From positions 27,412-91,411 of the IMG/VR virus record IMGVR_UViG_3300017951_000010: a DNA stretch of 64,000 bases. One strand, written 5' to 3'. Shown here one piece after another: positions 30,858-61,282 of the stretch. Within the stretch, counting starts at the first letter, position 1; the number at the start of each line of letters is the position of its first letter. Both the position numbers and the translations under genes were made by a program. Below the pieces are notes generated by a model. The model worked only from the letters and a program-made list of their open reading frames with translations, had not been told where the DNA came from and made no database searches. The DNA comes from a virus.

Positions 30858-31871
30858 ATGAACCTGATCCAATCTACTATTCTGACAAGTCTACCTGCGG
30901 CTAGGAAAAAAACTCCCAGTGGCTGGATATCTTTCAATGCGCCTTGTTGCGTACACAACGGCGAGACGGCAGACAAAAAGAAACGTGGTGGCATAATGAC
31001 CAGTGCAGACGGAACAGTAAGTTATCACTGCTTCAATTGTGGATTCAAGGCCAGTTACGTGATCGGCAGGAAGCTCACGTACAAGATGAGGCAGTTCATG
31101 GGCTACATCGGCATACCCGACGACACAATAAAGAAGTTGGCCATAGAGGCCATGCGTGAAGAAGAGAACGACATCAAGTATGAGAAAAAGAAATTTGTAA
31201 ACTTTAAAAACAAAGCACTGCCAAAAAACACACACAAACTTGATATTTGGCTAGAGAAATATATCGGAAACGACTTGACAGAACCGCAATGGAAAAAAAT
31301 TGATGGACTACTCAAATACCTAGGAGATAGAGGCATTGGCCCTGATTGGTATGATTTCATGTACTCTCCAGACAAGATGTGGGACATACACCAACGTCTG
31401 TTAATACCATTCTATTGGAGGGGTGACATTGTTGGTTACACAGGAAGAATATTTGAAGAATCGCGTGGTGTAAAATATTACACCGACGTATGGCCGGGGT
31501 ACGTGTTCAACATGGACGCACAGGATTGGGCAAGGAAATTTGTTATAGTCACTGAGGGACCTTTTGATGCCATTGCCGTTTCTGGAGTCAGCATACTGGG
31601 GTCGGAGATAAATGACACACAAAGAGAGTTGATTAATAATCTTGGAAGAAGAGTTATTGTTGTACCGGACAGAGATGCACCTGGAGAAAAATTGATTGAT
31701 CAGGCGACAGAGTTTGGATGGAGCGTGGCCTTTCCTGAATGGGATAACAGTATCAATGATGTTGCAGATGCAGTAAAGAATTATGGGAGGCTGTACACGA
31801 TACAATCTATTTTGAAAACAGCAGAAAGTACCAAACTTAAAATTGACCTGAAGAGGAGGATGTATGGTTAG
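30858..31871 (+). CDS. 61: DNA primase (gp61-like)
   Basis: 337 residues, as T4 gp61 (342). The N-terminal zinc site is formed by Cys30/31, His33, Cys58 and Cys61 (the latter in YHCFNCGF). The Toprim core has VTEGPFDAIAV (231-241, Glu233 and Asp237) and VVPDRDAPG (268-276). The primase makes the pentaribonucleotide primers for the lagging strand and works with gp41, encoded two genes on. The fold and catalytic residues look complete. Confidence 0.92.
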   Translation: MNLIQSTILTSLPAARKKTPSGWISFNAPCCVHNGETADKKKRGGIMTSADGTVSYHCFNCGFKASYVIGRKLTYKMRQFMGYIGIPDDTIKKLAIEAMREEENDIKYEKKKFVNFKNKALPKNTHKLDIWLEKYIGNDLTEPQWKKIDGLLKYLGDRGIGPDWYDFMYSPDKMWDIHQRLLIPFYWRGDIVGYTGRIFEESRGVKYYTDVWPGYVFNMDAQDWARKFVIVTEGPFDAIAVSGVSILGSEINDTQRELINNLGRRVIVVPDRDAPGEKLIDQATEFGWSVAFPEWDNSINDVADAVKNYGRLYTIQSILKTAESTKLKIDLKRRMYG

Positions 31872-32772
31872 TTTCCACGTTGAACCTACAAGTAAATGCA
31901 CTCTGGCGTGTAGCCTATGTGATAGGACTTGGTTCTATGAAAAGTTCAAGACTCGATCTATACACGAAATTGATGTAGACAATCTTGTATCTTTTGTGGG
32001 TGCCAATGCTAACATCGAACTGTGTGGCAACAACGGAGATCCTATATATCATTCTAAGTTCTTAGAACTTATTCGTAAATTAAAAGATAACAACTGTAGG
32101 ATAAGCATTATAACAAACGGTTCATCGAGAAGTAAAACTTGGTGGACAAGTTTATCTGTCCTACTGACAGAAAAAGATTCAATTACATTTAGCATAGACG
32201 GTCTAGAGGATACCAATCACATCTATCGTAAAAATTCTAAATGGCACACAATAATAGAGGCTGTAAATGTCATGTCGTCTAGTAAATGTAAATTGATTTG
32301 GAAGTTCATTGTATTCAAACACAATCAACATCAGATAGAACAAGCACAGGGTTTTTCAAAGACTTTGGGTTTTGATCATTTCAGATTAGAGCAGAGCGAT
32401 AGATGGTTAGGACAAAAAGATTTGATGCCTGACGAGGAATATGTTGACAAATACTACAAGCATCAGGAGTCAGTTTTGATTGACAAAGACTACCAAACCC
32501 AAATGAGTCCTGCTTGTTTGGTAAATGACAAACCAAGTTCTGACCTTTATATAGACGCAGAAGGCGACTTTTATCCTTGCTGTTGGATGGGCACCTATAG
32601 ATACAAGTACAAGAACATTTTTTCACCAAAACAATCAAATTTCAATATTAGAAACAACACACTACAAGATATTTTGCAAAGGTCGGATGTGGTTGAATTT
32701 TTTAATTCAACAAAACAATTTACATCTGCACACGATTGTTGTAAAATACAATGCGGAGTAAAAAATGGCTGA
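31864..32772 (+). CDS. Radical SAM enzyme with SPASM-like C-terminus
   Basis: 302 residues. The [4Fe-4S] motif is CTLACSLC (C-x3-C-x2-C, about 12-19). ELCGNNGDPIY (about 51-61) is the GGEP-like SAM motif, and TFSIDGLEDTNH gives the next strand. The C-terminal part has several Cys (DFYPCCWMG about 234-242, and a final HDCCKIQC) typical of a SPASM auxiliary-cluster domain. Such proteins modify peptides or small molecules. It is inserted between primase and helicase genes, overlapping both by 8 bases, so it is expressed with the replisome. Confidence 0.8.
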   Translation: MVSFHVEPTSKCTLACSLCDRTWFYEKFKTRSIHEIDVDNLVSFVGANANIELCGNNGDPIYHSKFLELIRKLKDNNCRISIITNGSSRSKTWWTSLSVLLTEKDSITFSIDGLEDTNHIYRKNSKWHTIIEAVNVMSSSKCKLIWKFIVFKHNQHQIEQAQGFSKTLGFDHFRLEQSDRWLGQKDLMPDEEYVDKYYKHQESVLIDKDYQTQMSPACLVNDKPSSDLYIDAEGDFYPCCWMGTYRYKYKNIFSPKQSNFNIRNNTLQDILQRSDVVEFFNSTKQFTSAHDCCKIQCGVKNG

Positions 32773-46847: not shown

Positions 46848-47932
46848 TATTTGAATTGAAGTTGCAGGTTGATTCTCATGCCTTCGTCCACACGCCCACC
46901 AGTGTGCATAGTGTATCCAGGATCGAACAGTGCAAAGTTTCCTGTGTTGTTTGTTGTCAATTTGACAATATTATCTGTGATCAATTTCTGCTCGGACGTT
47001 CCATCTAGCAGGTTCCTTCCAAACTGGTAGTTGATCCTCAATCTCTTTGGAAGTCTGAAGATAGCACTCCTGTGCAGTTTGTCCTCCATGTAATTTCCAA
47101 TTGCGTTTGCCCTGCCCCATACGGATTCAAAGGCATCGTGCTTCCACCTATTACTGGTCTTGACAAACCATATAGGTCCTTGTTTTTCTGTAACTTCTCC
47201 CAAATAGAAAGCACCTTTCAGCAAATCAAATTTTGGGTCTAAGTGTAGGTTGGTTGTCACTGGATGTTTCTGCGACACTGAATTGATATCTCTGTACTGT
47301 TGGAAGATATGACTGTCCGTCGGATAGGAAACGTGTAAGGTGACTTTCTTAACACTCATGCTCTTGCCCATGTATGAAGATGCCGCATCTAGTATTCCTT
47401 GCTTCTCGAATTCTTCATTTAACATGTCCTGCACCTTGCTACCATTTTCGGGTTTTGGGTTTGCTCTGTCGTATGTCCCTATTTGAGTTATTTGATCTTG
47501 TTTGTTTAATAAAAAGTCAATGTCCGATTGGAGGAGACTCTTGACCTTGTGTCCTATGTCGCTATATCCAAATGTGACACCCTGCTCTGCCAGGGTGTGA
47601 AAGTGTTTGTTGTCAGAATGCTTGTCAAAGAAGTTATGTCTATTTGTGGTTATTTGATAAGTGTACTGCCTGCCTACTTTTTTTCGCCAATGGTTTATAA
47701 TTTCCTGTTCTCCCTCCTGCAGAGGCATCTGTGTCTTTGAAAGCTCTACAAGTTCATCCACGATCATTAGGAATTGGTTCATTCCTTTTTTCTTCATGAA
47801 CATATCCTCACACCGATTGACAAGTGCATCTGATTCGAGATTGTCATCGAAACGTTGTTCTTGTCTTACTTCGGGGAGGTCTGATACATCGGGGAAAACA
47901 AATCCGTGATCGGCTATTTCTTGATAATTCAT
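46847..47932 (-). CDS. 2OG-Fe(II) oxygenase, PhyH-like
   Basis: 361 residues from the ATG at 47932. The N-terminal half is helical. The jelly roll has TTNLHLDPKFDLLKGAFYL with the H-x-D pair (about 224-226), and a far FDPGYTMHTGGRVDEGMRI block with the distal His and the 2OG-binding Arg (about 340-355). This order matches phytanoyl-CoA-type dioxygenases. Hydroxylation of a sugar, lipid or peptide is likely. A late-promoter-like motif lies 7 bases upstream of the start. Confidence 0.7.
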   Translation of the reverse strand: MNYQEIADHGFVFPDVSDLPEVRQEQRFDDNLESDALVNRCEDMFMKKKGMNQFLMIVDELVELSKTQMPLQEGEQEIINHWRKKVGRQYTYQITTNRHNFFDKHSDNKHFHTLAEQGVTFGYSDIGHKVKSLLQSDIDFLLNKQDQITQIGTYDRANPKPENGSKVQDMLNEEFEKQGILDAASSYMGKSMSVKKVTLHVSYPTDSHIFQQYRDINSVSQKHPVTTNLHLDPKFDLLKGAFYLGEVTEKQGPIWFVKTSNRWKHDAFESVWGRANAIGNYMEDKLHRSAIFRLPKRLRINYQFGRNLLDGTSEQKLITDNIVKLTTNNTGNFALFDPGYTMHTGGRVDEGMRINLQLQFK

Positions 47933-47939
47933 TATATGG

Positions 47940-47946
47940 GTATTTA
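47940..47946 (-). promoter_or_regulatory. Late-promoter-like TAAATAC (minus strand)
   Basis: GTTAAATACCC on the minus strand is 7 bases before the ATG at 47932. It is part of a 29-base divergent intergenic region with a second copy on the plus strand. Confidence 0.5.
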
Positions 47947-47950
47947 ACAA

Positions 47951-47957
47951 TAAATAT
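47951..47957 (+). promoter_or_regulatory. Late-promoter-like TAAATAT (plus strand)
   Basis: AATAAATATTCC lies 4 bases before the ATG at 47962, back to back with the minus-strand copy. Confidence 0.5.
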
Positions 47958-47961
47958 TCCT

Positions 47962-48783
47962 ATGCACAATTATCATTTCTCTAATGGATGCAGTTTCTCA
48001 ACCAAAAAGAAACACAATAGTTGTCACCAATGGTTGGCTAATCACTATGGACTAGGGCAAGACAAAACTATCAACTGTGCCAAAGGCGGACGTGGCAATG
48101 ATAGGATCGTACAGACCACAATGTCATTCTTTTACAATAATCCAGAAAGAATGAAGGACACCACAGTAAGCATAGGCTGGTCAACACCCTACAGATGGGA
48201 TTTTATTTTGAGAGACAAACAAGAGAGTTCAAGAGTCATACGTGGTGCAAATACAGAGTTTGACTGGCAGTGGCAGACTTTTCACCTTGCAAAGGCTGAT
48301 CCACCTGAACCTGGTAGGTTCTTCCTTGATTATGGAATCAATGAAAGAGGAATGGATCTAGATCTTACCCATGCTGTAAAACTTTACACTCAAATTCTAA
48401 CATTACAATATTTCTTCAAGCAACACAACATAAGGTATGTCATGTACCATGCTTTAACGAACTATTGTCCTGTGGACACCGTGGACGGTATATCTAGATC
48501 TCAACTGAAAAATTTACGTGACGCCATAGATAAAAAACATTTCATGAATTTTGACAGCAGTGAGTCAGTAAAGGAAAAAGTTAAGATGCAACTTGCAAAC
48601 AGGTCATCACCAGAACACAGGTATCATCACAAAGAGGATTACTGCCAGTCACACTTCGAGTTTGTGGCGAAGCATGGTCTGGGCAAGGCACCGAACGACG
48701 CACACCCAAATCCCGAAGGACACAGGCGATGGGGACAACTACTTTACGATTTCACAAAAAATAATGGCCTTTTTTCTAACTAA
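47962..48783 (+). CDS. SGNH/GDSL-like hydrolase
   Basis: 273 residues from the ATG at 47962. FSNGCSF (5-11) is block I. GGRGNDR (about 37-43) is block II with Gly and Asn. YVMYHAL and DAHPNPEGHRRWG (about 249-261) give the Asp and His. It is clearly paralogous to the gene at 13003-13674, with the same NGCSF, GGRGNDR and HPxxEGH blocks. A deacylase or acyltransferase role on glycan is inferred. Confidence 0.78.
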   Translation: MHNYHFSNGCSFSTKKKHNSCHQWLANHYGLGQDKTINCAKGGRGNDRIVQTTMSFFYNNPERMKDTTVSIGWSTPYRWDFILRDKQESSRVIRGANTEFDWQWQTFHLAKADPPEPGRFFLDYGINERGMDLDLTHAVKLYTQILTLQYFFKQHNIRYVMYHALTNYCPVDTVDGISRSQLKNLRDAIDKKHFMNFDSSESVKEKVKMQLANRSSPEHRYHHKEDYCQSHFEFVAKHGLGKAPNDAHPNPEGHRRWGQLLYDFTKNNGLFSN

Positions 48784-49384
48784 ATCTTGTTTCATTCACA
48801 CTCCTAAGTGTGCCGGCAGGTGGGTCAAACAACACCTCAGCGAAGCCTGTACCATCACTGGTAGGGAATACAATCAAGGATTCTTGGGAGAGAAAAACAC
48901 AGAACATTACGCCCCAACTTGGATCGAGCTCGGGGATAAAAAACCTTTTGCATTTGTGAGACACCCAATCGTGTGGTTGGCAAGCCTACACAATCACAGA
49001 ATGCGTAAGAGAGGAAACTGGTTTCCAGACAGGTTCCCATTAGAAAAGGCAGGACATTCTGATTGGCATCAATTTGTAAAAAACGTTTGCCTTCATGAAA
49101 ACTGGATACAGGAGTACTATGACATGCACGTGGGACAGTACGGAGATCAAATCATGATAGGAAAAATGGAAAACCTTGAAAGCGAACTGATAAGAATACT
49201 TACTGCGTTGAATGAACCTTTTGATATCACAAAATTAGAAGGCAAAGGAAAAATATTGCACAAAAGATCGAACATAGAGAACACGATGAAAAGAGTAAAA
49301 GCCTTGTCTCTGAAAGAAAAAGAGGCTCTGTATGAAAGCCAGAAAGTGGCCTTCTTAAAGTACGGCTATTCCTTGTCTGTGTAA
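48764..49384 (+). CDS. Sulfotransferase-like protein
   Basis: 206 residues from the ATG at 48764, overlapping the SGNH gene. FIHTPKCAGRWVKQHL (10-25) is the PAPS 5'-phosphosulfate loop. FAFVRHPIVWLASL (about 63-76) is the 3'-phosphate loop with R-x-P. Both are in the standard order and distance for carbohydrate-type sulfotransferases. It would transfer sulfate from PAPS to a glycan or other hydroxyl. It converges on a methyltransferase gene with a 30-base overlap. Confidence 0.75.
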   Translation: MAFFLTKSCFIHTPKCAGRWVKQHLSEACTITGREYNQGFLGEKNTEHYAPTWIELGDKKPFAFVRHPIVWLASLHNHRMRKRGNWFPDRFPLEKAGHSDWHQFVKNVCLHENWIQEYYDMHVGQYGDQIMIGKMENLESELIRILTALNEPFDITKLEGKGKILHKRSNIENTMKRVKALSLKEKEALYESQKVAFLKYGYSLSV

Positions 49385-49942
49385 TTCGACAAATCCAGAA
49401 CGTTTGTCGTTGTGCATGTAGACGACATCCTTAACAAACTGTTTCACACTAGACACATTCCTTAACGAACAAAAGACCCTAGTATCATTGTGCGAGTGTT
49501 CTAGAATAAATTCTTTATAGGTTCGTACAGGGTAATGGAACCCCATACTGCTTTCACTCATTATCACATCAAACTTAGGAGCGTTATCCCAGGTGGTGTC
49601 AGTTGGTTCTAAAAGTTTGTATTCTCGAACATTACGTGACTCAAGGCTAGACCTTATACTTTCAAAACTGTTGTAGGCTTCAAAATCATCAACTGGACCA
49701 AAGTCGTTGTGTCTCTTGTCGTTGTCTTGATCGTTTCTTTGCTTGTCTAATAACCAAATTTCCGTACCGTGCTCTGTATTAAACCAGCCTGATTCGTGTG
49801 CAAATCCACAGCCAATGTCTAACAACGTCTGCGGCATGATGCCGAGATAGTCTTTAAAGGCAGTGTACCCGACATATTTTTTATCAATGTACTCTTTGGA
49901 GTTCCAAAGTTTTTCTTGCCTACCTAATACTTTTTCTGACAT
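49355..49942 (-). CDS. Class I SAM methyltransferase
   Basis: 195 residues from the ATG at 49942. LLDIGCGFAHESGWF (about 41-55) is the SAM loop. IWLLDKQRN follows. DVIMSESSMGFHYPVRTYKEF (about 127-147) is motif II/III. The short length indicates a minimal Rossmann core. It overlaps the capsule-type transferase gene upstream by 23 bases and is probably translated with it. Confidence 0.72.
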   Translation of the reverse strand: MSEKVLGRQEKLWNSKEYIDKKYVGYTAFKDYLGIMPQTLLDIGCGFAHESGWFNTEHGTEIWLLDKQRNDQDNDKRHNDFGPVDDFEAYNSFESIRSSLESRNVREYKLLEPTDTTWDNAPKFDVIMSESSMGFHYPVRTYKEFILEHSHNDTRVFCSLRNVSSVKQFVKDVVYMHNDKRSGFVELHRQGIAVL

Positions 49943-50825
49943 GTTCCCAGCACTCCCCAGATTCAAATTCTGCAACGCTCCATTGGCAGTGGGCAATATT
50001 GTTTGTCCATTGCTTCTTATCACCCCTGTATGGATTGTTGATTTCATCAAGGCTATTACTACTTACATCATAGACCATACTTCCTGTGTCTAGCGCAACA
50101 CTTGGAACTCCGTTGATTACGGCATCTATACCTGTACCGGAGGTGTAAGTTACTGTGCACCATGCGTCCTTGAATAGTTCTTGCACAGGTACAAAATTCT
50201 TTTGGGTAAGATCACAGTCCTGCCATATGACATTAGGCAGGCTCAATATTTCTTGTTTCAGTTTGTTGTGTAGTGTTGTCTTCCTGTACAGCGGATGTGG
50301 TCTCACAATTATAGTTCTATCTGTTTTAGCCCTCAATTCTTTTGCTACATTGTTGGTCCATTGGAAAATATCTAAACCCCGTAGGCTGGCATCTCCTACC
50401 TTTTGCATACACAACAAAACGTAGTCTCCGTCTGCCTTCCACACACACTCCGGATCATATCCGTTTCTCTCAAACACTTTTTTTGACCTATCAGCCGTTA
50501 TGTGTTCAAATCCCCACTTCGCGTCATCCCAAAGGAATCCATTAACTCCTACCCTGAACTCCGAATGGAACGCTGTTGATATGGGCCTGCCAATCAGTTG
50601 TGTTTCCAACTGAACATATGGCATTCCACTTTCTATCACACGACCTTTGCCTTGATGTGCTTTCCTACCTCTGCTTTTCTTATAACTGCCATATATCACG
50701 GCACAGTCATACTTGTGAGCGTTGTCACTGGTGGTAATCTCGCCACCACACCCTTTGGCAAAGGATACCAACACGTTCCTGAATTGGTCATAGTTGGCAG
50801 AATCTTCTATTACAGCAATTCGCAT
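49920..50825 (-). CDS. Capsule-type glycosyltransferase-like protein, paralogue family member 5
   Basis: 301 residues from the ATG at 50825, which follows a TAAATAC motif by 4 bases. It has TIIVRPHPLYRKTTL (about 168-182), AWCTVTYTSGTGIDAVINGVPSVAL (about 222-246) and the terminal QWTNNIAHCQWSVAEFESGECW. These are the three family blocks shared with the genes at 12216, 15524, 16329 and 21145. The RPHP motif is complete. It is far from the other four, showing dispersal of the family through the genome. Confidence 0.6.
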   Translation of the reverse strand: MRIAVIEDSANYDQFRNVLVSFAKGCGGEITTSDNAHKYDCAVIYGSYKKSRGRKAHQGKGRVIESGMPYVQLETQLIGRPISTAFHSEFRVGVNGFLWDDAKWGFEHITADRSKKVFERNGYDPECVWKADGDYVLLCMQKVGDASLRGLDIFQWTNNVAKELRAKTDRTIIVRPHPLYRKTTLHNKLKQEILSLPNVIWQDCDLTQKNFVPVQELFKDAWCTVTYTSGTGIDAVINGVPSVALDTGSMVYDVSSNSLDEINNPYRGDKKQWTNNIAHCQWSVAEFESGECWEHVRKSIR

Positions 50826-50829
50826 GCGG

Positions 50830-50836
50830 GTATTTA
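50830..50836 (-). promoter_or_regulatory. Late-promoter-like TAAATAC (minus strand)
   Basis: GTAAATACCCGC on the minus strand, 4 bases before the ATG at 50825. Confidence 0.5.
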
Positions 50837-50891
50837 CGTAGCGGAGCGAAAGCGTAAATTTTACCAAACGTTTTTTCAAAAAATACGCGGA

Positions 50892-50907
50892 AGCGTAAAA
50901 GCGTAAA
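50892..50907 (+). repeat. Tandem AGCGTAAA repeat in a divergent intergenic region
   Basis: AGCGTAAA occurs twice in direct tandem (50892-50899, 50900-50907) and once more at 50851-50858. The 131-base gap (50826-50956) between divergent genes also holds a TTTTTT-C-AAAAAA inverted repeat. It may be an operator or promoter region. Confidence 0.4.
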
Positions 50908-50956
50908 GCCGGTCTGACCCGAACGATAATTAACACTTAACAATGGGAGACACAGC

Positions 50957-51127
50957 ATGGGCATACACTACGACTACAAGAGCACCCGAGGTTCCAAGAA
51001 GATGCAGAAGCAACAGGAACGTGAACAGCGCAGGCGATCCAGACGCTCCCGGGGGGAGATCCCCAAACAGAAACAGGACGAGAACAGGCCACTGACACTG
51101 GACATGATCACGGACCCCAACAAATGA
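50957..51127 (+). CDS. Small very basic protein
   Basis: 56 residues, ATG at 50957 behind GGGAGA, stop overlapping the ATG of the radical SAM gene (ATGA). It contains HYDYKSTRGSKKMQKQQ followed by an Arg-rich run (REQRRRSRRSRGE) and an acidic end. No fold or family is recognised. It is the first gene of the GC-rich segment. Possible roles are nucleic-acid binding or a substrate or leader for the radical SAM enzyme next door; the latter is speculation. Confidence 0.5.
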   Translation: MGIHYDYKSTRGSKKMQKQQEREQRRRSRRSRGEIPKQKQDENRPLTLDMITDPNK

Positions 51128-52155
51128 TCAATGAGAGATTATTCAATCACTACCGCATAGACACCCGCAAGGACCTACGGATAGGCAACAGTTGCCCCAG
51201 GCCCTTCGACACGGTGCTGATAGACAAGCAGGGATCCTGCTACGCCTGTGAGTGCCAGTCGTGGTTGCCACAGAGCATAGGCAACCTGCAGGTTAGGCCC
51301 CTGGCGGACATACTGGGCAGTGACATGCACAGGCACCTGCAGGGGTCCATAACGGACGGCACCTACAGGTACTGCAACGAGCACCAGTGCTCCTACATAC
51401 GGTCACAGAACGTGTTGCATGGCCAGCCGGATCGCATACGTCACCTGAGGCTGGCCATAGATGACAGTTGCAACCTGCGTTGTCCGAGTTGTAGGAAGGG
51501 CTTGATATTCCACAAGGAGGGCTCCGCGTACGACCTGGGCATACGCCTGGCCGACAGGATCAACGACTGGTTGCATGACTGTGAGGACCCGATGCAGGTG
51601 CACATAGGTTCCGATGGTGACCCGTTCGCGTCGCACGTGTACAGGCACTTCATGGAGCAGACACCACAACGGGACAACATCCGGTACAGCATACTGACCA
51701 ACGGACTGATGTTTCCGGAGTTCCACTCGCGGGTGCCCAACGTGATCGGCAACCTGCAGGAACTGGGAGTCAGCGTGGACGGCGCAACACAGGAGACCTA
51801 CGAGAAGTTGAGGCTCGGGGGCAAGTGGGAAAAGATACTGGAGGGGTTGGAATGCATGGCGGAGCAGAGACAGAAGCACGGCTTCAGGTTCATACTGCAC
51901 TTCGTGGTGCAGAAGGACAACTACCACGAGATGGAGGCCATGATAGACCTGGCGGAGCGGTTCGGGGCCGACCGAGTCTGGCTCAACAAGATCGAGGACT
52001 GGGGCACGACCGATGACTTCCACACACAGGACATCTGGCGGAGCCCGGAGTACCTGCGCAGGCTGGATGGCGTGCGGCAACGCATATGGCGGAGGGGTGA
52101 CCGGTTCATAGAGTGCCCCACGCTGTTGACCGAGAGCGAGAGGGCCCGACCGTGA
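51124..52155 (+). CDS. Radical SAM enzyme with N-terminal twitch-like domain
   Basis: 343 residues. The first 100 carry a Cys-rich auxiliary-cluster segment (NSCPRPFDTVLIDKQGS, then CYACECQSW and CNEHQCS), placed before the core. The core motif CNLRCPSC (about 115-122) is C-x3-C-x2-C. GSDGDPF (about 161-167) is the GGEP-like motif and SVDGATQETYEKLR (about 219-232) the next strand. This domain order is that of N-terminal twitch radical SAM proteins. DNA composition here is strongly GC-rich, unlike most of the window. Confidence 0.82.
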   Translation: MINERLFNHYRIDTRKDLRIGNSCPRPFDTVLIDKQGSCYACECQSWLPQSIGNLQVRPLADILGSDMHRHLQGSITDGTYRYCNEHQCSYIRSQNVLHGQPDRIRHLRLAIDDSCNLRCPSCRKGLIFHKEGSAYDLGIRLADRINDWLHDCEDPMQVHIGSDGDPFASHVYRHFMEQTPQRDNIRYSILTNGLMFPEFHSRVPNVIGNLQELGVSVDGATQETYEKLRLGGKWEKILEGLECMAEQRQKHGFRFILHFVVQKDNYHEMEAMIDLAERFGADRVWLNKIEDWGTTDDFHTQDIWRSPEYLRRLDGVRQRIWRRGDRFIECPTLLTESERARP

Positions 52156-52706
52156 AGTCCTACCACGTGTTGGGGTGCGGCCCACTGGCCGAGATACAGT
52201 CACACACAATGGACTACATCCACAACAGGAGACCGGAGATGCTGGACGAGAGCGACCTCTGGCACAAGGCCGACACGCCGGAGTTCCTGGGTGCGTGTGC
52301 GCCGTTGGTGCGCTGGACACGTGAACTGGGACTGCGGATCAGGGAAGTGGCCTTCACTGTGTCACACAGCGGCACGGTGGTCAACCCGCACATAGACGAG
52401 GCGCCGGTGCTGGCCAAAGTCAACGTGCCCATACTCAACACCCGACACACCTACAACAGGTGGTACGACGTGCCACAACAGGTCATGCAGGACCCCAGGC
52501 ACAGGCGCACCAACAGTTTTGGGAGATCATACCACAGTTTCCAGGGAGTGGCACTGCGGCAGGTGGATGAACTGGAACTGACGTCACCCGCCGTGTTCAA
52601 CTCCGCCCGGGCACACGACATCGCGTTCACCGAGAGGTCCACTTACCCACGAGTGGTGCTGACCTGCATGTTCCACGATGAACCTAAAAAGTTCCTGGAG
52701 GCATGA
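52152..52706 (+). CDS. Probable 2OG-Fe(II) oxygenase-fold protein
   Basis: 184 residues from a GTG at 52152 that overlaps the previous stop (GTGA). TVVNPHIDEAPVLAKVNVPI (about 75-94) contains an H-x-D pair followed by a jelly-roll strand. FNSARAHDIAFTE (about 150-162) offers a distal His and YPRVVLTCMF the Arg. The arrangement fits an aspartyl-hydroxylase-like or related dioxygenase. It is in the GC-rich segment, coupled to the radical SAM gene, so both may act on the same substrate. Confidence 0.5.
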   Translation: MKSYHVLGCGPLAEIQSHTMDYIHNRRPEMLDESDLWHKADTPEFLGACAPLVRWTRELGLRIREVAFTVSHSGTVVNPHIDEAPVLAKVNVPILNTRHTYNRWYDVPQQVMQDPRHRRTNSFGRSYHSFQGVALRQVDELELTSPAVFNSARAHDIAFTERSTYPRVVLTCMFHDEPKKFLEA

Positions 52707-52713
52707 CCGCTCG

Positions 52714-52720
52714 TAAATAT
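52714..52720 (+). promoter_or_regulatory. Late-promoter-like TAAATAT
   Basis: CGTAAATATTTCC, AT-rich within a GC-rich segment, 6 bases before the ATG at 52727. Confidence 0.5.
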
Positions 52721-52726
52721 TTCCAA

Positions 52727-53236
52727 ATGAAGATAGCCATCACAGGACACAAGAGAGGCATAGGACGTCAGTTGGACCTACAGCTCACGGCACTGGGACA
52801 CCGGGTGGTGGGCATATCGAGGAGCGATGGGGAGAACATCCGCAGGGTGGCGCACACCGCTACACTGATAGAGGACTGTGACATGTTCATCAACAACGCC
52901 GTGAGTGCCTACGCCCAGACCGAGTTGCTGTTCGAGGTGTGGCACAGGTGGGCAGAGCTCAAGGAGGCGCACCACATCTGGAACATATCCACGAGGCTGT
53001 GCCTGGAGACACAGGACAGGCAGATCAATGGTCTTACCATGCGGGAGAGCATGGAGTACAGGAATCGCAAGATGAGCCTGGAACTGGCACACAGTCAACT
53101 GGCCGCGCAGGCCAGCAACATAAAGATGAAATTAATCAGGCCACCGGGCGTGAGGACCCAGGCGTTCAGTGATCCCAATGGCCTGTCCGCGGAGGAATAC
53201 GTGCATGGACTCCTGGAGGAGCAGGGACTCAAATGA
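52727..53236 (+). CDS. Short-chain dehydrogenase/reductase-like protein
   Basis: 169 residues from the ATG at 52727; an ATG at 52703 overlapping the upstream stop is the alternative. IAITGHKRGIGRQL (3-16) is the TGxxxGIG cofactor loop. CDMFINNAV (about 53-61) is the NNAG-like block. EYRNRK has the Y-x3-K active site. The protein is short for an SDR (usual 250). Its role may be oxidation or reduction of a sugar or peptide product of neighbouring enzymes; this is inference. Confidence 0.65.
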   Translation: MKIAITGHKRGIGRQLDLQLTALGHRVVGISRSDGENIRRVAHTATLIEDCDMFINNAVSAYAQTELLFEVWHRWAELKEAHHIWNISTRLCLETQDRQINGLTMRESMEYRNRKMSLELAHSQLAAQASNIKMKLIRPPGVRTQAFSDPNGLSAEEYVHGLLEEQGLK

Positions 53237-54375
53237 AGCCAAAACAGATACTGATGAACAAGAGCTTCTGTCCGTTGCCCTGGACAGGTTTCATAGTGCA
53301 ACAGAACGGTGACGTCAAGAACTGCGTGTTGGCCAAGAAGACTCTGGGCAACCTGCGTGAACGCACAGTGCAGGAGATAATGTCCGGTGCCGAGAACACC
53401 GAGATAAAGGAACAGATGCTTTCGGACAGCAAACCCTCCAGTTGCGAAGGCTGTCACAGGCTCGAGCAGGGAAAGAGCAACCTCGACATCATAAGCCAGA
53501 GGCTGTACTACATCAAGGAACTGCGAGACGTGGATCCCGAGTTGTACGACCAGTTGTCCAATTTCAATCTGCACACAGTGGACATACGTTGGACCAACCA
53601 ATGCAACCAGGCCTGCGTGTATTGTGGTCCACACAACAGCACACTATGGGAGAAAGAGGTCGGCGCATCTGAAGTCATGTCATTGGAATCAAAAAAGGCA
53701 CTGAGGGATTACATTTTCCAAAACGTCTCACAGTTGAAGAACGTATACCTAGCGGGCGGTGAGCCCACCCTCATGAACGAGAACATCGCGTTCCTCAAAC
53801 TGCTGTTAGAGAGAAACCCAAAGGTGCACCTGCGTGTCAACACCAACCTCAGCAACATCCAGACTAAAGTTGCACGCCTAATAATGCAATTTGAAAACGT
53901 GCATTGGATTGTCAGCGTGGAGTCCACAGGCGACCATTACGATTACATTAGGTATGGCGGCAGTTGGCAGAGGCTGGTGGACAACATCAGTACCGTCAGG
54001 TTGGTACCGGGTCACAAGGTCAGTTTCAACATGCTATACTGCATACTCAACCACAAAGAGATATTCAACTGCATTGACTTCCTGGTGTCAATGGGCTTCC
54101 ATAATAACAGTTTTGTTGTGGGTCCTGTAATTGGACCACGTTGGCTTAACATAAGAAACCTGCCTGCAAAGAAACTGGAATGGTGCAAGAGCGAGTTACA
54201 GCAACGCATAGAAAAAAAGCCTGGCTTCCTGTTAGAGGACGGCCTACGCAATCTCTGGTCATACCTTGACGAGGCGTTTGCACCAGACCTGGATGAGTCA
54301 TTCCGCAGGCTGAGGGAAATAGACCAAAGAAGAGGATTAGATTCAAAAAAAGTGATACCAGAACTTTATGATTAA
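53233..54375 (+). CDS. Radical SAM enzyme with N-terminal twitch-like domain
   Basis: 380 residues, ATGA-coupled. The N-terminal domain has FCPLPWTGFIVQQNGDVKNC (about 13-32), GNLRERTVQEIMSG and CEGCHRLE (about 75-82): a twitch/SPASM-like cluster domain before the core. The core is CNQACVYC (about 122-129), AGGEPTLMN (about 174-182) and IVSVESTGDHYDYIRYGG (in part). Composition falls from GC-rich at the 5' end to ordinary toward the 3' end, so the segment border lies inside this gene. Peptide modification is the usual role of such architecture. Confidence 0.82.
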   Translation: MKPKQILMNKSFCPLPWTGFIVQQNGDVKNCVLAKKTLGNLRERTVQEIMSGAENTEIKEQMLSDSKPSSCEGCHRLEQGKSNLDIISQRLYYIKELRDVDPELYDQLSNFNLHTVDIRWTNQCNQACVYCGPHNSTLWEKEVGASEVMSLESKKALRDYIFQNVSQLKNVYLAGGEPTLMNENIAFLKLLLERNPKVHLRVNTNLSNIQTKVARLIMQFENVHWIVSVESTGDHYDYIRYGGSWQRLVDNISTVRLVPGHKVSFNMLYCILNHKEIFNCIDFLVSMGFHNNSFVVGPVIGPRWLNIRNLPAKKLEWCKSELQQRIEKKPGFLLEDGLRNLWSYLDEAFAPDLDESFRRLREIDQRRGLDSKKVIPELYD

Positions 54376-54886
54376 AATAACAAAAATCAGAGACGAATAC
54401 GTCTTCCCAATATTTAAGAATGGCTATACTAGCATCAGAAACCATGCAGACCAGAACAGATGCAGATGGTTTATCAACGAGCAGTGCAGACGGGCAGACA
54501 CCATCACTGTGATAATCAGAGAACCAAGGCAACGTTACATATCTGGGGTGCATACGGTTGTAGAACTTCTGCGCCGTAAACACAAAAACATCGACCACGA
54601 GACAGTTGTGACCCTCATTGAAAATTACAATTTCTCCAACGAACATTTCCAACCACAATGGGCCTGGATGCTTAGGCTGAAAGAATATTTCAGTGGCAAC
54701 ATCAAATTGGAGGGAATGGTACATCTAGACCACTTGACTGGACTACACGACGGTCCCTTCATCCCAGAGATGACCAACGCCCAGAGAAAAATACTAGAGG
54801 CAATGACGCCACCGGATCTATCCAATGACTACAAACTCTACAGACAGATAGGCACAACAGGGAGTATAGCAGATGTATTGTCCTAG
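54368..54886 (+). CDS. Sulfotransferase-like protein
   Basis: 172 residues. YVFPIFKNGYTSIRNH (11-26) resembles the PAPS loop (PKNACTS type). ITVIIREPRQRYISGVH (about 46-62) is the R-x-P...RFxSG block that binds the 3'-phosphate. HFQPQW follows at about 96-101. It looks like a compact member of the carbohydrate sulfotransferase superfamily. It lies between two radical SAM genes, overlapping both, and so belongs to the same operon. Confidence 0.65.
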   Translation: MIKITKIRDEYVFPIFKNGYTSIRNHADQNRCRWFINEQCRRADTITVIIREPRQRYISGVHTVVELLRRKHKNIDHETVVTLIENYNFSNEHFQPQWAWMLRLKEYFSGNIKLEGMVHLDHLTGLHDGPFIPEMTNAQRKILEAMTPPDLSNDYKLYRQIGTTGSIADVLS

Positions 54887-55892
54887 ATTGGACCATTTTG
54901 TGAGGCTAAACGCGGATGGCAGTGTGGGCAGATGTGGACACATGATAAATCCAAAGGGATTCGACACAATCGATCAGTTAGACTCTAGCGAATGGTTGCA
55001 TGGCATCAAAGAAAAGGTCAACAACAACGAATGGCCCAGCGAGTGTGAACGTTGCAAGTTGTCTGAGGAAACCACACGTGAAAGTATCAGGACAAAGAGC
55101 ATAGAGAGACACAAGATACTGCACCCTTTGAACAACAGGTATCTAGTTGTTGGGGGTGTGCTAGACAACGTCTGTAACAGTGCGTGCCAGACCTGTAACT
55201 CAAAGCTCAGCACCAAGATAGGAAGCCTAGAGTCAAAAGATTACCCCAGAGTAGACAACTATGTGAGGTTCTGGGAACTGCCGCAGGATCGGATACTGGA
55301 GGTCGACGTGAACGGTGGTGAGCCTACCGCTAGCAAGAACTACAAAAAGATACTCGCCAAACTTCCACCTAACACCAAAATACTCCGCATGAACACCAAC
55401 GGTTCGCGAATGATACCAGAGCTTTTAGATGTACTGAACAGTGGCATAATGGCCATAGTTACTCTCAGCCTTGACGGCTGTGGAGAAACCCATGACTACG
55501 TAAGATGGCCTATAAAATGGGATGGCTACACAAAGACAGTAAGAAAATATTTAGAGCTGAGGGAAAGATTTCCTTTGCTAAAACTTAACACATGGACCAC
55601 GGTGAGTTGTCTTAACATAAACAATTTGCCAGACATTATCAGGTTCACACAGCAAAATGGTCTAGACCATGCGTGGGCATTCCTCAATGCACCCGACGTG
55701 CTGAATGTGAAATACAGCAACCGGTACACGAAGAGAGCCAAACAGGCTTTTGCAAATTCAGACATTGAACAACTGCAAGAAATATCCAACACTCTGGCAA
55801 CACAAGAAGACAACGAAGAAGCACTGCAAAACTTTGTGCAAAGGCAAGACGCCTTGCGGGGTATATCAATTAAAGATTATAAACTTTCATAA
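54873..55892 (+). CDS. Radical SAM enzyme with N-terminal twitch-like domain
   Basis: 339 residues. The N-terminus has YCPRLDHFVRLNADGSVGRC (2-21) and CERCKLSE (about 54-61), the third twitch-like arrangement in this cluster. The core is VCNSACQTCNSK (C-x3-C-x2-C, about 106-117), NGGEPTASKNY (about 146-156) and TLSLDGCGETHDYVRWP. It is related to the two previous enzymes but has its own linker lengths. It converges on another radical SAM gene with a 23-base overlap. Confidence 0.85.
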   Translation: MYCPRLDHFVRLNADGSVGRCGHMINPKGFDTIDQLDSSEWLHGIKEKVNNNEWPSECERCKLSEETTRESIRTKSIERHKILHPLNNRYLVVGGVLDNVCNSACQTCNSKLSTKIGSLESKDYPRVDNYVRFWELPQDRILEVDVNGGEPTASKNYKKILAKLPPNTKILRMNTNGSRMIPELLDVLNSGIMAIVTLSLDGCGETHDYVRWPIKWDGYTKTVRKYLELRERFPLLKLNTWTTVSCLNINNLPDIIRFTQQNGLDHAWAFLNAPDVLNVKYSNRYTKRAKQAFANSDIEQLQEISNTLATQEDNEEALQNFVQRQDALRGISIKDYKLS

Positions 55893-56952
55893 CCTTTTTG
55901 AGTTCGTCGATCGATGTGGACTTTGGCGCACATATGCCACAGATGCATGTTTTCTGAACACATGTCAAATAGGTGTTAGAATCATTTTCAAGTTTACTCT
56001 TAAGGCTACTGATGTAATCATCCATTGTGTCAGATGTGGCAAGTGCTCCTAACTTACCATCAAGGGTAACCCTGCAATCCTTGTTGGTGTAAAAACTTTT
56101 CGTGTGCGAATCGGCCATCAGGAAAAACTGGTTTGCGGAACAATTGAAACCAACATAACTGTTATTTGGCTGAGGTACAAACTTGGCCGGGTGCTTGAAA
56201 TCTCTGTTGATGCACATCAGTCTCTCTCCACAACATGCTCTGCCTCTACGAATAATTTCCACGTTCTGCATTTTATCTGTCAACTCTTTGCTCAGCCTCG
56301 GCCAGAACTTTCGGAGGTCGTCGAAGTGTTCTTCGGTATAGTTGCCTGTTGGTCCATCGACAAGTTTTGGTTGAATGTTGTAACCTTTCTTCTGCATGAA
56401 CTTCAACATGTACACGCACTCCTGCCAGTTTTTGGGATACATGACAACTATTCCACCATACCGTTTTCCAGATTTATGGGTAACTTCAAGATTACGCAAA
56501 AAATTTTCTTTCAACTTGCCTGGCCCTTCTGTGTGATAACTGAACTGGACATATTCTAAATGTTTTACGACTTCTTTCCATTTGTCTTCTTTGCAAGATG
56601 CGTTTGTTGTCAGTAAACGTGTCAATGACCATTTGTGTGAATACTTTTTGTAAAGTTCTGAACTTTCTTTCAACAAATAAACTATGTCGGGATGATACAA
56701 GGCCTCGCCACCATAAATGTTCAAAGTGGCCGATCTTAATCGTGGCTTCTTCACGTCCATCACCGTGTCTATGTAGCTCATGGCCTGTCCCAGCATCGTG
56801 AGGCAGAGTTCCTTGTCGGGGTGAGCCTGTCTGTTATCGTGTCCACCACAATACGTGCAATCGTAATTACACTTCATGGTTACTCGCCAATCACAAAGGA
56901 AACCCATTTTGTGTTTTGGTGATGCGTAAGGTTCTAGTGTTTTGATCTGCAT
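55870..56952 (-). CDS. Radical SAM enzyme with C-terminal cysteine cluster
   Basis: 360 residues. The core motif CNYDCTYCGGHDNR (about 28-41) is near the N-terminus, with YGGEALYHPD (about 79-88) as the SAM loop. The C-terminus ends with CVQKTCICGICAPK (about 332-345), a SPASM-like cluster. AGGHDNR after the last Cys resembles the start of AdoMet-dependent peptide maturases. Unlike the three plus-strand enzymes the extra Cys are at the C-terminus, so it is a separate lineage. Confidence 0.82.
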   Translation of the reverse strand: MQIKTLEPYASPKHKMGFLCDWRVTMKCNYDCTYCGGHDNRQAHPDKELCLTMLGQAMSYIDTVMDVKKPRLRSATLNIYGGEALYHPDIVYLLKESSELYKKYSHKWSLTRLLTTNASCKEDKWKEVVKHLEYVQFSYHTEGPGKLKENFLRNLEVTHKSGKRYGGIVVMYPKNWQECVYMLKFMQKKGYNIQPKLVDGPTGNYTEEHFDDLRKFWPRLSKELTDKMQNVEIIRRGRACCGERLMCINRDFKHPAKFVPQPNNSYVGFNCSANQFFLMADSHTKSFYTNKDCRVTLDGKLGALATSDTMDDYISSLKSKLENDSNTYLTCVQKTCICGICAPKSTSIDELKKVMKVYNL

Positions 56953-56959
56953 GTCGTAA

Positions 56960-57679
56960 TTATTTCAACTTATTACCAAATTTTTCAATAAAGAGTTTTG
57001 CGAACCTTTCGTGATGTTCGACACCGTAGTGTAGGCCATCGTTCGCGAGACTTGGTTCATTGGTCAGTTTGCGTTGTTGAAACTTGTCCCAGTAGGGCCA
57101 ACAGTTCTTGATGGTGTAATGTTCTAGAACATTCAGGCCTTTAATGTGTTCATGATAAGAGTCCTGTGCAAAACAATGAAAAGTTTTACATTGATTCTTT
57201 TCGGCAAACTTCTCAACAAAAAATACATTTTTAAGAAAATTGTTTTTATCAGTGTGCTCGTTCTCATGTTTGAGTTCCTCGTCATAACTCATCTGACTCT
57301 GGGCGTAGGTATGCAACTTTTCTCTACGACTCCAGAAAGGCCAACACACAATTATTATCCTAGGATCTAATAGTTTTTCACAACCATACAATATCCTTAC
57401 CAACTTGTCGGCACTAGCACCAGGCTGTCCAAGATTCCAGTATCTCAGTCTTTCAGTGTTGTGTTGTGATAGGAAGTGTACCCAGTGTTCGTTGTCAGCG
57501 TTGCCTTGTCCAAATGTATGACTACATCCTAGCACCACTACGTTCTTCTTACCGGAAGGCATCGGCTCCCATTCAGGACACCTGTATCCGTGAGAGTTTA
57601 CTTTGTAGTCCTTCAATGGAGATTTATCCAACGCTACGCTAACTGGCAGTTCTCTATCACCGTAATATCCAAACTTCAT
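56960..57679 (-). CDS. SGNH-like hydrolase
   Basis: 239 residues. VVVLGCSHTFGQGNADNEHW (about 47-66) holds the block I GCSHTFG with Ser nucleophile. WNLGQPGASADKL is block II. NDGLHYGVEHHERFA (about 214-228) supplies the Asp-x-x-His pair. IIVCWPFWSRREK lies in the middle. This GCSHTFG-type subfamily is common in marine phages. It is TAATG-coupled to the small gene upstream and 8 bases from the radical SAM gene downstream. Confidence 0.75.
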   Translation of the reverse strand: MKFGYYGDRELPVSVALDKSPLKDYKVNSHGYRCPEWEPMPSGKKNVVVLGCSHTFGQGNADNEHWVHFLSQHNTERLRYWNLGQPGASADKLVRILYGCEKLLDPRIIIVCWPFWSRREKLHTYAQSQMSYDEELKHENEHTDKNNFLKNVFFVEKFAEKNQCKTFHCFAQDSYHEHIKGLNVLEHYTIKNCWPYWDKFQQRKLTNEPSLANDGLHYGVEHHERFAKLFIEKFGNKLK

Positions 57680-57981
57680 TATGTGCTTCCTTTCGACAGC
57701 ATCATCTGTTGTTTGATCTTCATGCTGATGTACAGTTCCATGAACCCCATCCTGCCCTTTCGCCCGAACATGTCGGGATACTTCAGTTTGCCCACCATCA
57801 GGTGTTTCTCTTCCGCGTAGCAGTCCAACACGTTGGTTTTCTTGCGATACACAAATTTCAGTGCCTTGCGTTCGGCAAGATATCCCATCAAAGGAGACTC
57901 TTTCCTTAGAAGGTGCTTGGCCACATATGGTGGCACCTGTTGCATGTTTTCTTTGAGCTTGATCGAATAAAAGCGTTTCAC
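57679..57981 (-). CDS. Small basic unknown protein
   Basis: 100 residues from a GTG at 57981, or 88 from the ATG at 57945. The sequence is basic, with VPPYVAKHLLRKESPLMGYLAER and FGRKGRMGFMELYISMKIKQQ. No family is recognised. Its stop overlaps the SGNH start (TAATG). It follows the tRNA cluster by 20 bases. Confidence 0.45.
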   Translation of the reverse strand: MKRFYSIKLKENMQQVPPYVAKHLLRKESPLMGYLAERKALKFVYRKKTNVLDCYAEEKHLMVGKLKYPDMFGRKGRMGFMELYISMKIKQQMMLSKGST

Positions 57982-58001
57982 ACAGTTAATTATTGTGCAA
58001 T

Positions 58002-58078
58002 TGGTGGACCGGAAAGGATTCGAACCTATGGCCTTGAGTTCCGCAAACTCACGCTCTATCCAACTGAGCTACCGGTCC
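58002..58078 (-). tRNA. tRNA-Arg (anticodon GCG)
   Basis: 77 bases including encoded CCA. The acceptor stem GGACCGG/CCGGTCC is perfect with discriminator A. D-arm GCTC/GAGC, anticodon stem TGAGT/ACTCA and loop TTGCGGA give anticodon GCG. The T-loop is TTCGAAT, with one T-T mismatch in the T-stem. It reads CGC/CGT codons. Confidence 0.9.
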
Positions 58079-58083
58079 ATTAA

Positions 58084-58160
58084 TGGCCTCCGGGGAGGGA
58101 TTCGAACCCCCGACCCCAAGTTTAGGAAACTCGTATTCTATCCAACTGAACTACCCGGAG
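58084..58160 (-). tRNA. tRNA-Arg (anticodon CCT)
   Basis: 77 bases including encoded CCA. Acceptor stem CTCCGGG/CCCGGAG with discriminator G. Anticodon stem CGAGT/ACTTG and loop TTCCTAA give anticodon CCT, which reads AGG. AGG is frequent in the surrounding genes. T-loop TTCGAAT. Confidence 0.9.
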
Positions 58161-58168
58161 GTCTCGTG

Positions 58169-58242
58169 TGGTGGAGGATAGGAGAGTCGAACTCCTGACT
58201 CATCCATGCCATGGATGCGTGATCCCACTTCACCAATCCCCC
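58169..58242 (-). tRNA. tRNA-Ala (anticodon GGC)
   Basis: 74 bases including encoded CCA. Acceptor GGGGGAT/ATCCTCC has a G3-T70 pair, the alanine identity element. Anticodon stem CATCC/GGATG with loop ATGGCAT gives GGC, reading GCC/GCT. T-loop TTCGACT. Confidence 0.88.
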
Positions 58243-58314
58243 AAAATGACCAATCACATGCGCGACCAATGACTTTTTTGGTGTATATGGTAATTCTGGC
58301 ATAATTGGTTCAAA

Positions 58315-58390
58315 TGGTGCCGCTTCACGGATTCGAACCGCGGACCTACTGATTACAAATCAGTTGCTCTACCAACTGAGCTAAAGCGGC
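58315..58390 (-). tRNA. tRNA-Thr (anticodon TGT)
   Basis: 76 bases including encoded CCA. Acceptor GCCGCTT/AAGCGGC with discriminator A. Anticodon stem ACTGA/TCAGT and loop TTTGTAA give TGT, reading ACA, a codon used heavily in the phage genes. T-loop TTCGAAT. A TATATT element about 10 bases upstream on the minus strand may be its promoter. Confidence 0.92.
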
Positions 58391-58494
58391 ATCACATGTA
58401 ATATAGTACACTATAAACACGCAATAGTCTACCTGTTAAACGCACACAGAAGCACGTACACGCATGGTAAAGCCACACATGGACTACTTGTCTA

Positions 58495-59292
58495 TTATCG
58501 CTTTCGCATGCCGTTAAACACAGTGATTTTCAGTTTGGAGTTGTCTGAATCGATGGATTTAAATGTATCAAAGTCAATGTTTAATTTTTCCAATAACTTG
58601 GTCATTGCTTTGACATCTTTTGGTAAGCACATGCCTCCATAACCTTTGAGATTCTCATTTACATCTAGGTAGGTGTCTTTACATCTACCAAACTTGACAA
58701 ATGCATCTTTCACGGCAGTGTAATCACAATCCAATCTACCACACACCTCATGCATGATGTTTGCAAATATGATCTTGTATGCGGCGAACACGTTGTTATA
58801 ATATTTCAATATCTCCGCTTCCGTGGGTTTCAATCTCACAGTTTCCTTTGGATAGTGACCGTGTGCTTCAACAAGTTTTTCGAACACAAACTTGTCATGT
58901 GTTCCCACAGCCAGTAGGTTGTGATTGTTTATAAAGTCGTCCGCGGCACAACGTTCTCGCAGAAACTCTGGCACGAAACACAACGTCAGATCATTAAACT
59001 CATTGATTGCTTTTTGAGTGAAGCCACACTCCACTGTGCTTTTGATTGCCACTATTCCTTTATATTCGTTGGCAGATAATTCTTTGAGCACACTAGTGAT
59101 GATGGTTGTGTCACAACTGCCGTCGTCCCCTTGGGGCGTAGGCACACACAGAAACACAATCTCGCTTGGGATGATATCCTTAATTGTGCTGTTTAGTTTG
59201 AGGTCATGGCAAAATATTTCGTGTCCTAATTTTTCAAACCCTGTGTTGATTGCGGACCCAACAACACCTAATCCAACAATGCCTATCTTCAT
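58495..59292 (-). CDS. UDP-glucose/GDP-mannose dehydrogenase-like enzyme, shortened
   Basis: 265 residues against the usual 390-450. The NAD loop is GIVGLGVVGSA (4-14). VPTPQGDDGS (50-59), IKSTVECG and VPEFLRER (107-114) are dehydrogenase-family blocks. AEILKYYNN has the active-site Lys163 and GYGGMCLPKD the catalytic Cys222. The C-terminal UDP-binding domain is missing, so it may use another nucleotide sugar or depend on a partner. It would oxidise the 6-hydroxyl to a uronate. It overlaps the epimerase gene by 4 bases. Confidence 0.8.
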   Translation of the reverse strand: MKIGIVGLGVVGSAINTGFEKLGHEIFCHDLKLNSTIKDIIPSEIVFLCVPTPQGDDGSCDTTIITSVLKELSANEYKGIVAIKSTVECGFTQKAINEFNDLTLCFVPEFLRERCAADDFINNHNLLAVGTHDKFVFEKLVEAHGHYPKETVRLKPTEAEILKYYNNVFAAYKIIFANIMHEVCGRLDCDYTAVKDAFVKFGRCKDTYLDVNENLKGYGGMCLPKDVKAMTKLLEKLNIDFDTFKSIDSDNSKLKITVFNGMRKR

Positions 59293-60146
59293 AGCAACGA
59301 CTCCACTGTTTCTTTCATGCCATCACGGAGAGTGGTGTATCTTTCAAAACCGGTCAGGTCTTTGAGCAGGCTAGTGTCGGGACATCTTCTTAAAACAGAC
59401 CCTCTGGGTCCTTCTCGTATTTCCAACAGTGTTGGATCAACGCCCATAATGTCCATTATGCATTTGGCAACGTCCTCTATCTTTATCTCTTCCTGTTTGC
59501 CAACGTTCACTATCTTGTCATTGGCGTGCAACACTAAATTGTGAGTCATGGCGACAGCATCATCCACGTAACAGAAACTTCTTGTATCGTTTCCTTTGAT
59601 GTAGTACTCACCCTGCTTTGCTCTCTCAACGAACTCACTTATGAAATGATCCCGTTGTCCGGGGCCGTACACATTGAAATACCTTATGATCAACCAGTGT
59701 GTAGAAAGATTGGATATCAAATTTTCTCCTAACGCTTTTGGAATGCTGTAACTCCACCTAGGGTTCATGATGTCATCAAACATAATAGGGACTTGTTCGT
59801 CGGTTGGCACATCATAAAGACCCTTGTCCACCGCACCATTAAATATTTCACACGTGCTGGTGAAAACTATTTTGGTGGGTGAGTCCTTGTAACGTTCAAC
59901 AATGTGCATGGTAGGCAATGTGTTGTTCATTGTTACTTCTGTTGGTGTTTCATAAAAAAGCCTTGTGCCGTTTGTTGCCGCCATGTGTACAATGACGTCA
60001 CAGTCTGGCATGTTGTCCACAACAGACTTGTCCTTGAGGTCTTGTCCGTCTGCTAGATCATAAGTTGTTACGTCATGCTTGTCCTTGATGTGATTTAGAT
60101 AATGACTGCCAATAAACCCTTTATGGCCAGTGAGAACTATTCTCAT
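59289..60146 (-). CDS. NAD-dependent sugar epimerase/dehydratase (extended SDR)
   Basis: 285 residues. TGHKGFIGSHYL (6-17) is the NAD loop. VHMAATNG, then FTSTCEIFN with the catalytic Ser/Thr (about 93-101) and WSYSIPK with Y-x3-K (about 130-136). RYFNVYGPGQ and RSFCYVDDA are family blocks. Close functional relatives are UDP-glucose 4-epimerases and UDP-glucuronate decarboxylases. Coupled to the dehydrogenase and a transferase, it forms a three-gene operon for one nucleotide sugar. Confidence 0.82.
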   Translation of the reverse strand: MRIVLTGHKGFIGSHYLNHIKDKHDVTTYDLADGQDLKDKSVVDNMPDCDVIVHMAATNGTRLFYETPTEVTMNNTLPTMHIVERYKDSPTKIVFTSTCEIFNGAVDKGLYDVPTDEQVPIMFDDIMNPRWSYSIPKALGENLISNLSTHWLIIRYFNVYGPGQRDHFISEFVERAKQGEYYIKGNDTRSFCYVDDAVAMTHNLVLHANDKIVNVGKQEEIKIEDVAKCIMDIMGVDPTLLEIREGPRGSVLRRCPDTSLLKDLTGFERYTTLRDGMKETVESLL

Positions 60147-60946: not shown

Positions 60947-60951
60947 CGCCA

Positions 60952-60958
60952 ATATTTA
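60952..60958 (-). promoter_or_regulatory. Late-promoter-like TAAATAT (minus strand)
   Basis: CTTAAATATTGGC on the minus strand, 5 bases before the ATG at 60946. Confidence 0.5.
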
Positions 60959-60970
60959 AGTACCGTTATA

Positions 60971-60999
60971 TTGACGGTTGTTATTTTATGTGCTATGTT
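60971..60999 (+). promoter_or_regulatory. Sigma-70-like promoter
   Basis: TTGACG (60971-60976) and TATGTT (60994-60999) with a 17-base spacer. The -10 is weak. A 7-bp hairpin (AAGCATA/TATGCTT, 61004-61022) lies at the start of the predicted leader. It would serve the small gene at 61067. Confidence 0.4.
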
Positions 61000-61066
61000 A
61001 AAGAAGCATACCAGTTATGCTTGAAACACATAAATAATTTACCCATAAAGGGGCAGGAGGACACTT

Positions 61067-61246: not shown

Positions 61247-61282
61247 ACATTATTGGGAACAAGAGCAAGTTAAATAACCGCG

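Follow-up and report, generated by a model that had tools for sequence, protein, structure and literature searches.

Radical S-adenosylmethionine (SAM) enzymes in which a four-cysteine twitch domain precedes the catalytic core are described by the protein family NF033640 (N_Twi_rSAM), and T4-like marine phages rich in radical SAM genes have been reported: the variable region of pelagimyophages carries radical SAM cassettes (PMC7029224), and one T4-like environmental genome has 12 radical SAM genes (PMC5332604). Here we analyzed a window of 64,000 nucleotides, part of the 91,411-base IMG/VR virus record IMGVR_UViG_3300017951_000010 (positions 27,412 to 91,411), in which two such twitch-first enzymes (RS2 and RS3) are encoded in an operon with a short-chain dehydrogenase/reductase (SDR) and a probable sulfotransferase (ST). 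The conserved unit of this region is the quartet ST-RS3-SDR-RS2, with a putative oxygenase gene (OG) as an optional member, and not the set of four radical SAM genes that the original prediction, made from this DNA alone, had singled out. As far as their accessible text goes, the two reports describe neither this unit and its two genome positions nor a p56-RS1 gene pair or a link to bacterial glycans. Literature on phage radical SAM enzymes with a sulfotransferase, gp32/uvsX, or Wzt likewise yielded no description of the cassette, with thin coverage of subscription journals. Hence, the enzyme family and the radical SAM-rich T4-like phages are already known, while the cassette itself was not found described.

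The evidence for the quartet comes from IMG/VR scans started separately from RS3, SDR, RS2, and ST. These matched 238, at least 576, at least 596, and 354 stretches, of which we retained and read the top 80 from each scan. Among the RS3-started loci with at least 3.5 kb of flanking DNA, ST was present in 27/27, SDR in 25/27, and RS2 in 17/27. The other starting points gave the reciprocal result: SDR-started loci contained ST (36/36) and RS3 (33/36), RS2-started loci contained SDR, ST, and RS3 (each 32/33), and 17 of 18 ST-started loci contained RS3. The homologues are therefore not scattered without their neighbors; relatives keep gene content and order, and the predicted co-occurrence in other viral genomes was found. 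The protein distances of RS3, ST, and SDR also correlate (r of 0.62 to 0.79), as is partly expected from shared descent.

The quartet occurs in two arrangements. In a first phage group the gene order is terminase-x-gp32-[ST-RS3-(OG)-SDR-RS2]-uvsX (gp32 and uvsX are names given from reading of the translations), and in the phage group of the window it is p56-RS1-OG-SDR-(RS2)-ST-RS3-SGNH, downstream of primase and helicase genes. The window has orthologs of both genes, sharing about 60% (gp32) and 75% (uvsX) identity with their first-group counterparts, and only 174 bp lie between its gp32 and uvsX; the quartet therefore holds two genome positions, with permuted order, in related genomes. A four-gene core that recurs in this way in many phage contigs very probably represents one undescribed biochemical pathway. 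In the window, the seven genes from p56 to RS3 run in one direction with successive overlaps of 4, 4, 4, 4, 8, and 14 nucleotides, and this overlap at every junction suggests translational coupling across the operon. Such an operon, the reciprocal co-occurrence, and the T4-type capsid and terminase genes bear out the proposal of a biosynthetic system in a phage. RS4, which runs convergent onto the end of RS3, was considered as a further core member and rejected, as it was found in 5/27 loci and at variable positions; the grouping of all four radical SAM enzymes into one system is therefore not entirely correct, RS4 being a sporadic neighbor.

All four radical SAM frames between 51124 and 56952 are intact, and Pfam family PF04055 matched each of them, as well as a fifth enzyme (RS5), above its cut-off. 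The SPASM/twitch family PF13186 matched N-terminally in RS1 (residues 24 to 89) and RS2 (residues 13 to 75). NF033640, with a curated cut-off of 170 bits, matched RS2 (247.5 bits) and RS3 (137.5 bits) over their full length and RS1 (39.8 bits) over the core part only, so RS2 alone is filed as a member of the family, the definition of which does not include the ST/SDR cassette. In alignments of 30 to 34 relatives, RS3 has invariant cysteines before the core (C3/C21/C58/C61) and in it (C101/C105/C108), as does RS2 (C13/C31/C71/C74 and C124/C128/C131), and RS1 has five N-terminal ones (C24/C42/C44/C84/C89) in addition to C116/C120/C123. In RS4, CNYDCTYC comes first and nine invariant cysteines lie downstream of the core. 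The cluster cysteines are thus kept across relatives, and the predicted layout, a cysteine-rich domain before the core in the three plus-strand enzymes and after it in the one on the opposite strand, was correct. RS1 is a diverged relative, and its profile aligns with that of RS2 through the twitch domain. With regard to anti-phage defense, for which no PADLOC search was made, matches to viperin profiles were weak and far below the cut-off.

The likeness of these enzymes to characterized ones is partial. The N-terminal domain of RS2 matches the C-terminal twitch of BtrN, the 2-deoxy-scyllo-inosamine dehydrogenase acting on an aminocyclitol, with an E-value of 3e−5; only this domain matches, and it lies at opposite ends of the two proteins. 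SkfB, CteB, SuiB, and anSME share the radical SAM core fold with the cassette enzymes but carry the auxiliary domain on the opposite side of the core, and the quartet lacks the precursor peptide. The predicted model of RS3 (predicted local distance difference test score [pLDDT] of 89) found no full-length match in the PDB (template modeling [TM] score of at most 0.43), whereas more than 15 predicted viral proteins matched over their full length. These include MoaA/NifB/PqqE-family proteins of KVP40-type vibriophages, with a TM score of about 0.63 and about 23 to 29% identity over part of the protein. Hence, the twitch-first architecture is widespread in phages and apparently unsolved structurally. 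The densest radical SAM arrays that we saw were three 21-kb loci (L138, L139, and L140) with approximately 10 to 12 radical SAM-like matches each, among them several relatives of RS4 and RS5. In the translations of five long phage radical SAM loci, which were read by eye and not family-tested, no fusion of an N-twitch radical SAM enzyme to a glycosyltransferase was recognized.

The genes interleaved with the radical SAM genes, which the original prediction had pointed out, are real and conserved, and their assignments differ in strength. SDR keeps the cofactor motif GxxxGxG and YxxxK, and its profile matches are partial and below the cut-off. ST has only 172 residues. Its relatives keep VxPIFKNGxSS and RxPxxRxxSG, about 34 residues apart, which resemble the 5'-phosphosulfate-binding (5'PSB) and 3'-phosphate-binding (3'PB) motifs of carbohydrate sulfotransferases (PF03567; NDST/3-OST); R51, P53, R56, and G60 are invariant. 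The window ST has no Pfam match and does not reach the PF03567 cut-off, and PF03567 matches 4/26 relatives (best E-value, 7.6e−4). The top fold matches of its predicted model (pLDDT of 93) are mostly sulfotransferases, NDST/3-OST types among them. From these motifs and weak family and fold matches, ST is probably a minimal sulfotransferase that is not filed as a PF03567 member. The oxygenase call for OG comes from the motif HxD...H...R, which is largely conserved among relatives; searches against Pfam and PDB profiles returned no match.

What might such a pathway act on? Bacterial members of NF033640 above the cut-off are rare (2/369, 3/399, 1/78, and 2/385 genomes in overlapping samples), and we read four of their loci. 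Another genome, G013, was set aside: it is the metagenome-assembled genome holding a 10-kb contig with gene content resembling that of these phages (L141), the sole find when bacterial RS3 homologues were sought by back-translated patterns. In three of the four loci the context is a polysaccharide gene cluster. One (L155) has the gene next to a family-2 glycosyltransferase, and another (L157) has it amid genes that read as glycosyltransferase, methyltransferase, and epimerase like. The third (L154) has four tandem copies by rfbC/rfbD-like, ABC2_membrane, TylF, and WbsX genes; one of these copies, a single 854-residue frame (positions 8579 to 11143, minus strand) with the domain order ABC_tran-Wzt_C-SPASM-Radical_SAM, joins an N-twitch radical SAM enzyme to a Wzt-like O-antigen export ATPase. 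This fusion is a strong glycan clue for the NF033640 subfamily.

We tentatively favor the reading that the phage operon tailors host surface glycans by oxidation or epimerization combined with sulfation; although it falls somewhat short of being probable, it is the best supported by the polysaccharide-cluster relatives, the carbohydrate-type signatures of ST, the sugar genes of the window (epimerase, UDP-sugar dehydrogenase, and TylF-like genes), and the fast divergence of ST. ST sequences are only 26 to 30% identical between phages with 91 to 95% helicase identity, which would suit a role in a surface antigen. The substrate, the chemistry, the reaction order, the use of 3'-phosphoadenosine 5'-phosphosulfate (PAPS), and the biological role are what we infer here. 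In the two N-twitch enzymes, a 5'-deoxyadenosyl radical would take a hydrogen from a sugar carbon of a nucleotide sugar or lipid-linked glycan, and an alcohol would be oxidized or epimerized in a BtrN-like manner, with the auxiliary [4Fe-4S] cluster accepting an electron or anchoring the substrate. SDR may reduce or interconvert the carbonyl, ST would transfer sulfate from host PAPS, and the optional OG may hydroxylate. The modified residue would be placed on host lipopolysaccharide or capsule during infection, altering charge and receptor identity, and the phage might gain superinfection exclusion or altered defence. A bolder version is possible but rather unlikely: the two twitch-first enzymes, SDR, and the minimal sulfotransferase would form a pathway peculiar to phages, its product would be a new kind of sulfated sugar (keto or epimerized) shown on the infected cell, and the unit would be a portable module moving between positions in T4-type genomes.

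Several observations weigh against glycan tailoring. In the gp32-uvsX group the quartet sits amid replication genes and not in a glycan cluster. The fourth bacterial locus (L153) has a methyltransferase as the sole neighbor of note, and only four such loci were read. The fold matches of ST are individually nonsignificant (best E-value, 0.04; TM score of at most 0.33). Characterized SPASM/twitch enzymes act mostly on peptides, and the top PDB match of RS3 is the peptide maturase SkfB.

Peptide or protein modification is a serious rival. The radical SAM enzymes would cross-link, epimerize, or oxidize a short peptide (p56 in the case of RS1) or a phage or host protein, and ST would sulfate a residue such as tyrosine. 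The RS3 fold matches SkfB, SuiB, CteB, anSME, and EpeE fit this idea, yet they cover mainly the radical SAM core. The 56-residue basic protein exists, just outside the start at 51124 first assigned to the cluster. It was found in 42 viral loci, in 38 of which RS1 comes next (two of the remainder end at contig edges), and a diverged form with MGIHxxYK...TLDxLTxP lies upstream of more RS1 genes and retains the ATGA overlap. However, p56 is missing before RS1 in five loci (L106, L125, L097, L100, and L113), two loci have p56 without RS1, and the protein has no cysteine and a variable middle between conserved ends. In three loci (L102, L016, and L093) a 61-residue DUF1289-type four-cysteine protein directly upstream of RS1 replaces or follows p56, and several RS1 genes are preceded by neither. 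Because p56 tracks RS1 and several RS1 genes lack it, p56 is an RS1 partner and not a cassette-wide substrate; the idea that every radical SAM enzyme here acts on it was rejected, whereas RS1 itself may still do so. The search for small conserved peptides thus succeeded for RS1 and not for the core: no conserved small open reading frame was found in the quartet, and the gp32-uvsX group has its quartet without p56. With the bacterial relatives in polysaccharide clusters, we rank peptide modification, including maturation of ribosomally synthesized and posttranslationally modified peptides, below glycan tailoring and consider it improbable, although the original prediction had named it alongside a biosynthetic system. 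The two loci with p56 relatives but no RS1 downstream are L195 and L197, and in L195 an ST-like gene directly follows p56.

Less probable still is that the cassette makes a small diffusible metabolite or cofactor, such as a signal, a siderophore-like compound, or a redox cofactor. The combination of redox enzymes with a tailoring enzyme, a core without a peptide precursor, and an FTR1-like iron permease encoded by the same phage would fit, but the unit includes neither a scaffold-building enzyme nor an exporter. Synthesis of a hypermodified nucleotide that shields phage DNA, suggested by the gp32-uvsX location of the quartet in the first group and by the compatibility of radical SAM, SDR, and 2-oxoglutarate (2OG) chemistry with base modification, is very unlikely, since no nucleotide-specific family is prominent among the family matches, the window's group has the quartet elsewhere by variable genes, the bacterial relatives lie in glycan clusters, and we know of no role for a sulfotransferase in nucleotide or DNA base modification.

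Radical SAM genes of environmental phages have been noted repeatedly, in the accessible parts of the earlier reports without a known function. A reciprocally conserved cassette turns them into a testable pathway of four defined enzymes, and it suggests that phages may remodel host surfaces through radical chemistry combined with sulfation.

Features of the cassette region and a further radical SAM gene (window positions)
Feature	Position	Strand	Description
p56	50957..51127	+	56-residue basic protein, MGIHxxYK...TLDxxTxP; RS1 partner; 4-nucleotide ATGA overlap with RS1
RS1	51124..52155	+	Radical SAM enzyme, N-terminal SPASM/twitch-like domain; PF13186 and PF04055, invariant cysteines, profile match to RS2
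OG	52152..52706	+	Oxygenase-like protein, putatively of 2OG-Fe(II) type, with HxD...H...R; starts at a GTG that overlaps the RS1 stop; optional cassette member
SDR	52703..53236	+	Small short-chain dehydrogenase/reductase; GxxxGIG and YxxxK
RS2	53233..54375	+	N-twitch radical SAM enzyme; NF033640 member, above cut-off
ST	54368..54886	+	Probable minimal sulfotransferase; KNGxTS and RxPxxRxxSG motifs
RS3	54873..55892	+	N-twitch radical SAM enzyme; adjoined by ST in 27/27 distinct loci with enough flank
RS4	55870..56952	-	Radical SAM core, then cysteine-rich C-terminal domain; sporadic neighbor outside the conserved quartet
SGNH/GDSL-like hydrolase	56960..57679	-	Frequent cassette flank in the window's phage group
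Conserved 100-residue protein	57679..57981	-	Unknown function; flanks cassette
RS5	31864..32772	+	Fifth radical SAM enzyme, C-terminal SPASM; flanked by a primase-like and a helicase-like gene; PF04055

By its capsid and terminase matches the virus is a T4-superfamily phage, and the isolates nearest in these proteins (47 to 77% identity) are large phages, PA5oct, Paride, and Phosso among them. A DNA-level search of positions 45000 to 64000 against isolated phages gave no close match, the sole matching part being a tRNA-Thr region, and INPHARED contained no close relatives among isolated phages, with distant matches for RS1 to RS3 only and none for RS4 or p56. The window has further genes of note. 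Positions 10472 to 22775 hold a long series of genes whose translations, which were not family-tested, read as glycosyltransferase, epimerase, and aminotransferase like. Positions 36798 to 41401 (plus strand) encode an entire Urt/Liv-type ABC transporter in five genes, for two permeases, two ATPases, and a binding protein that has no relatives among 133 cassette loci. They adjoin a gene of the D-glutamate cyclase family/putative hydro-lyase type (41402 to 42244, minus strand). The FTR1-family iron permease-like gene (63232 to 63834, minus strand) is found in the same phage that is rich in Fe-S enzymes, and a gene at 34191 to 34874 (plus strand) resembles that of Endonuclease III.

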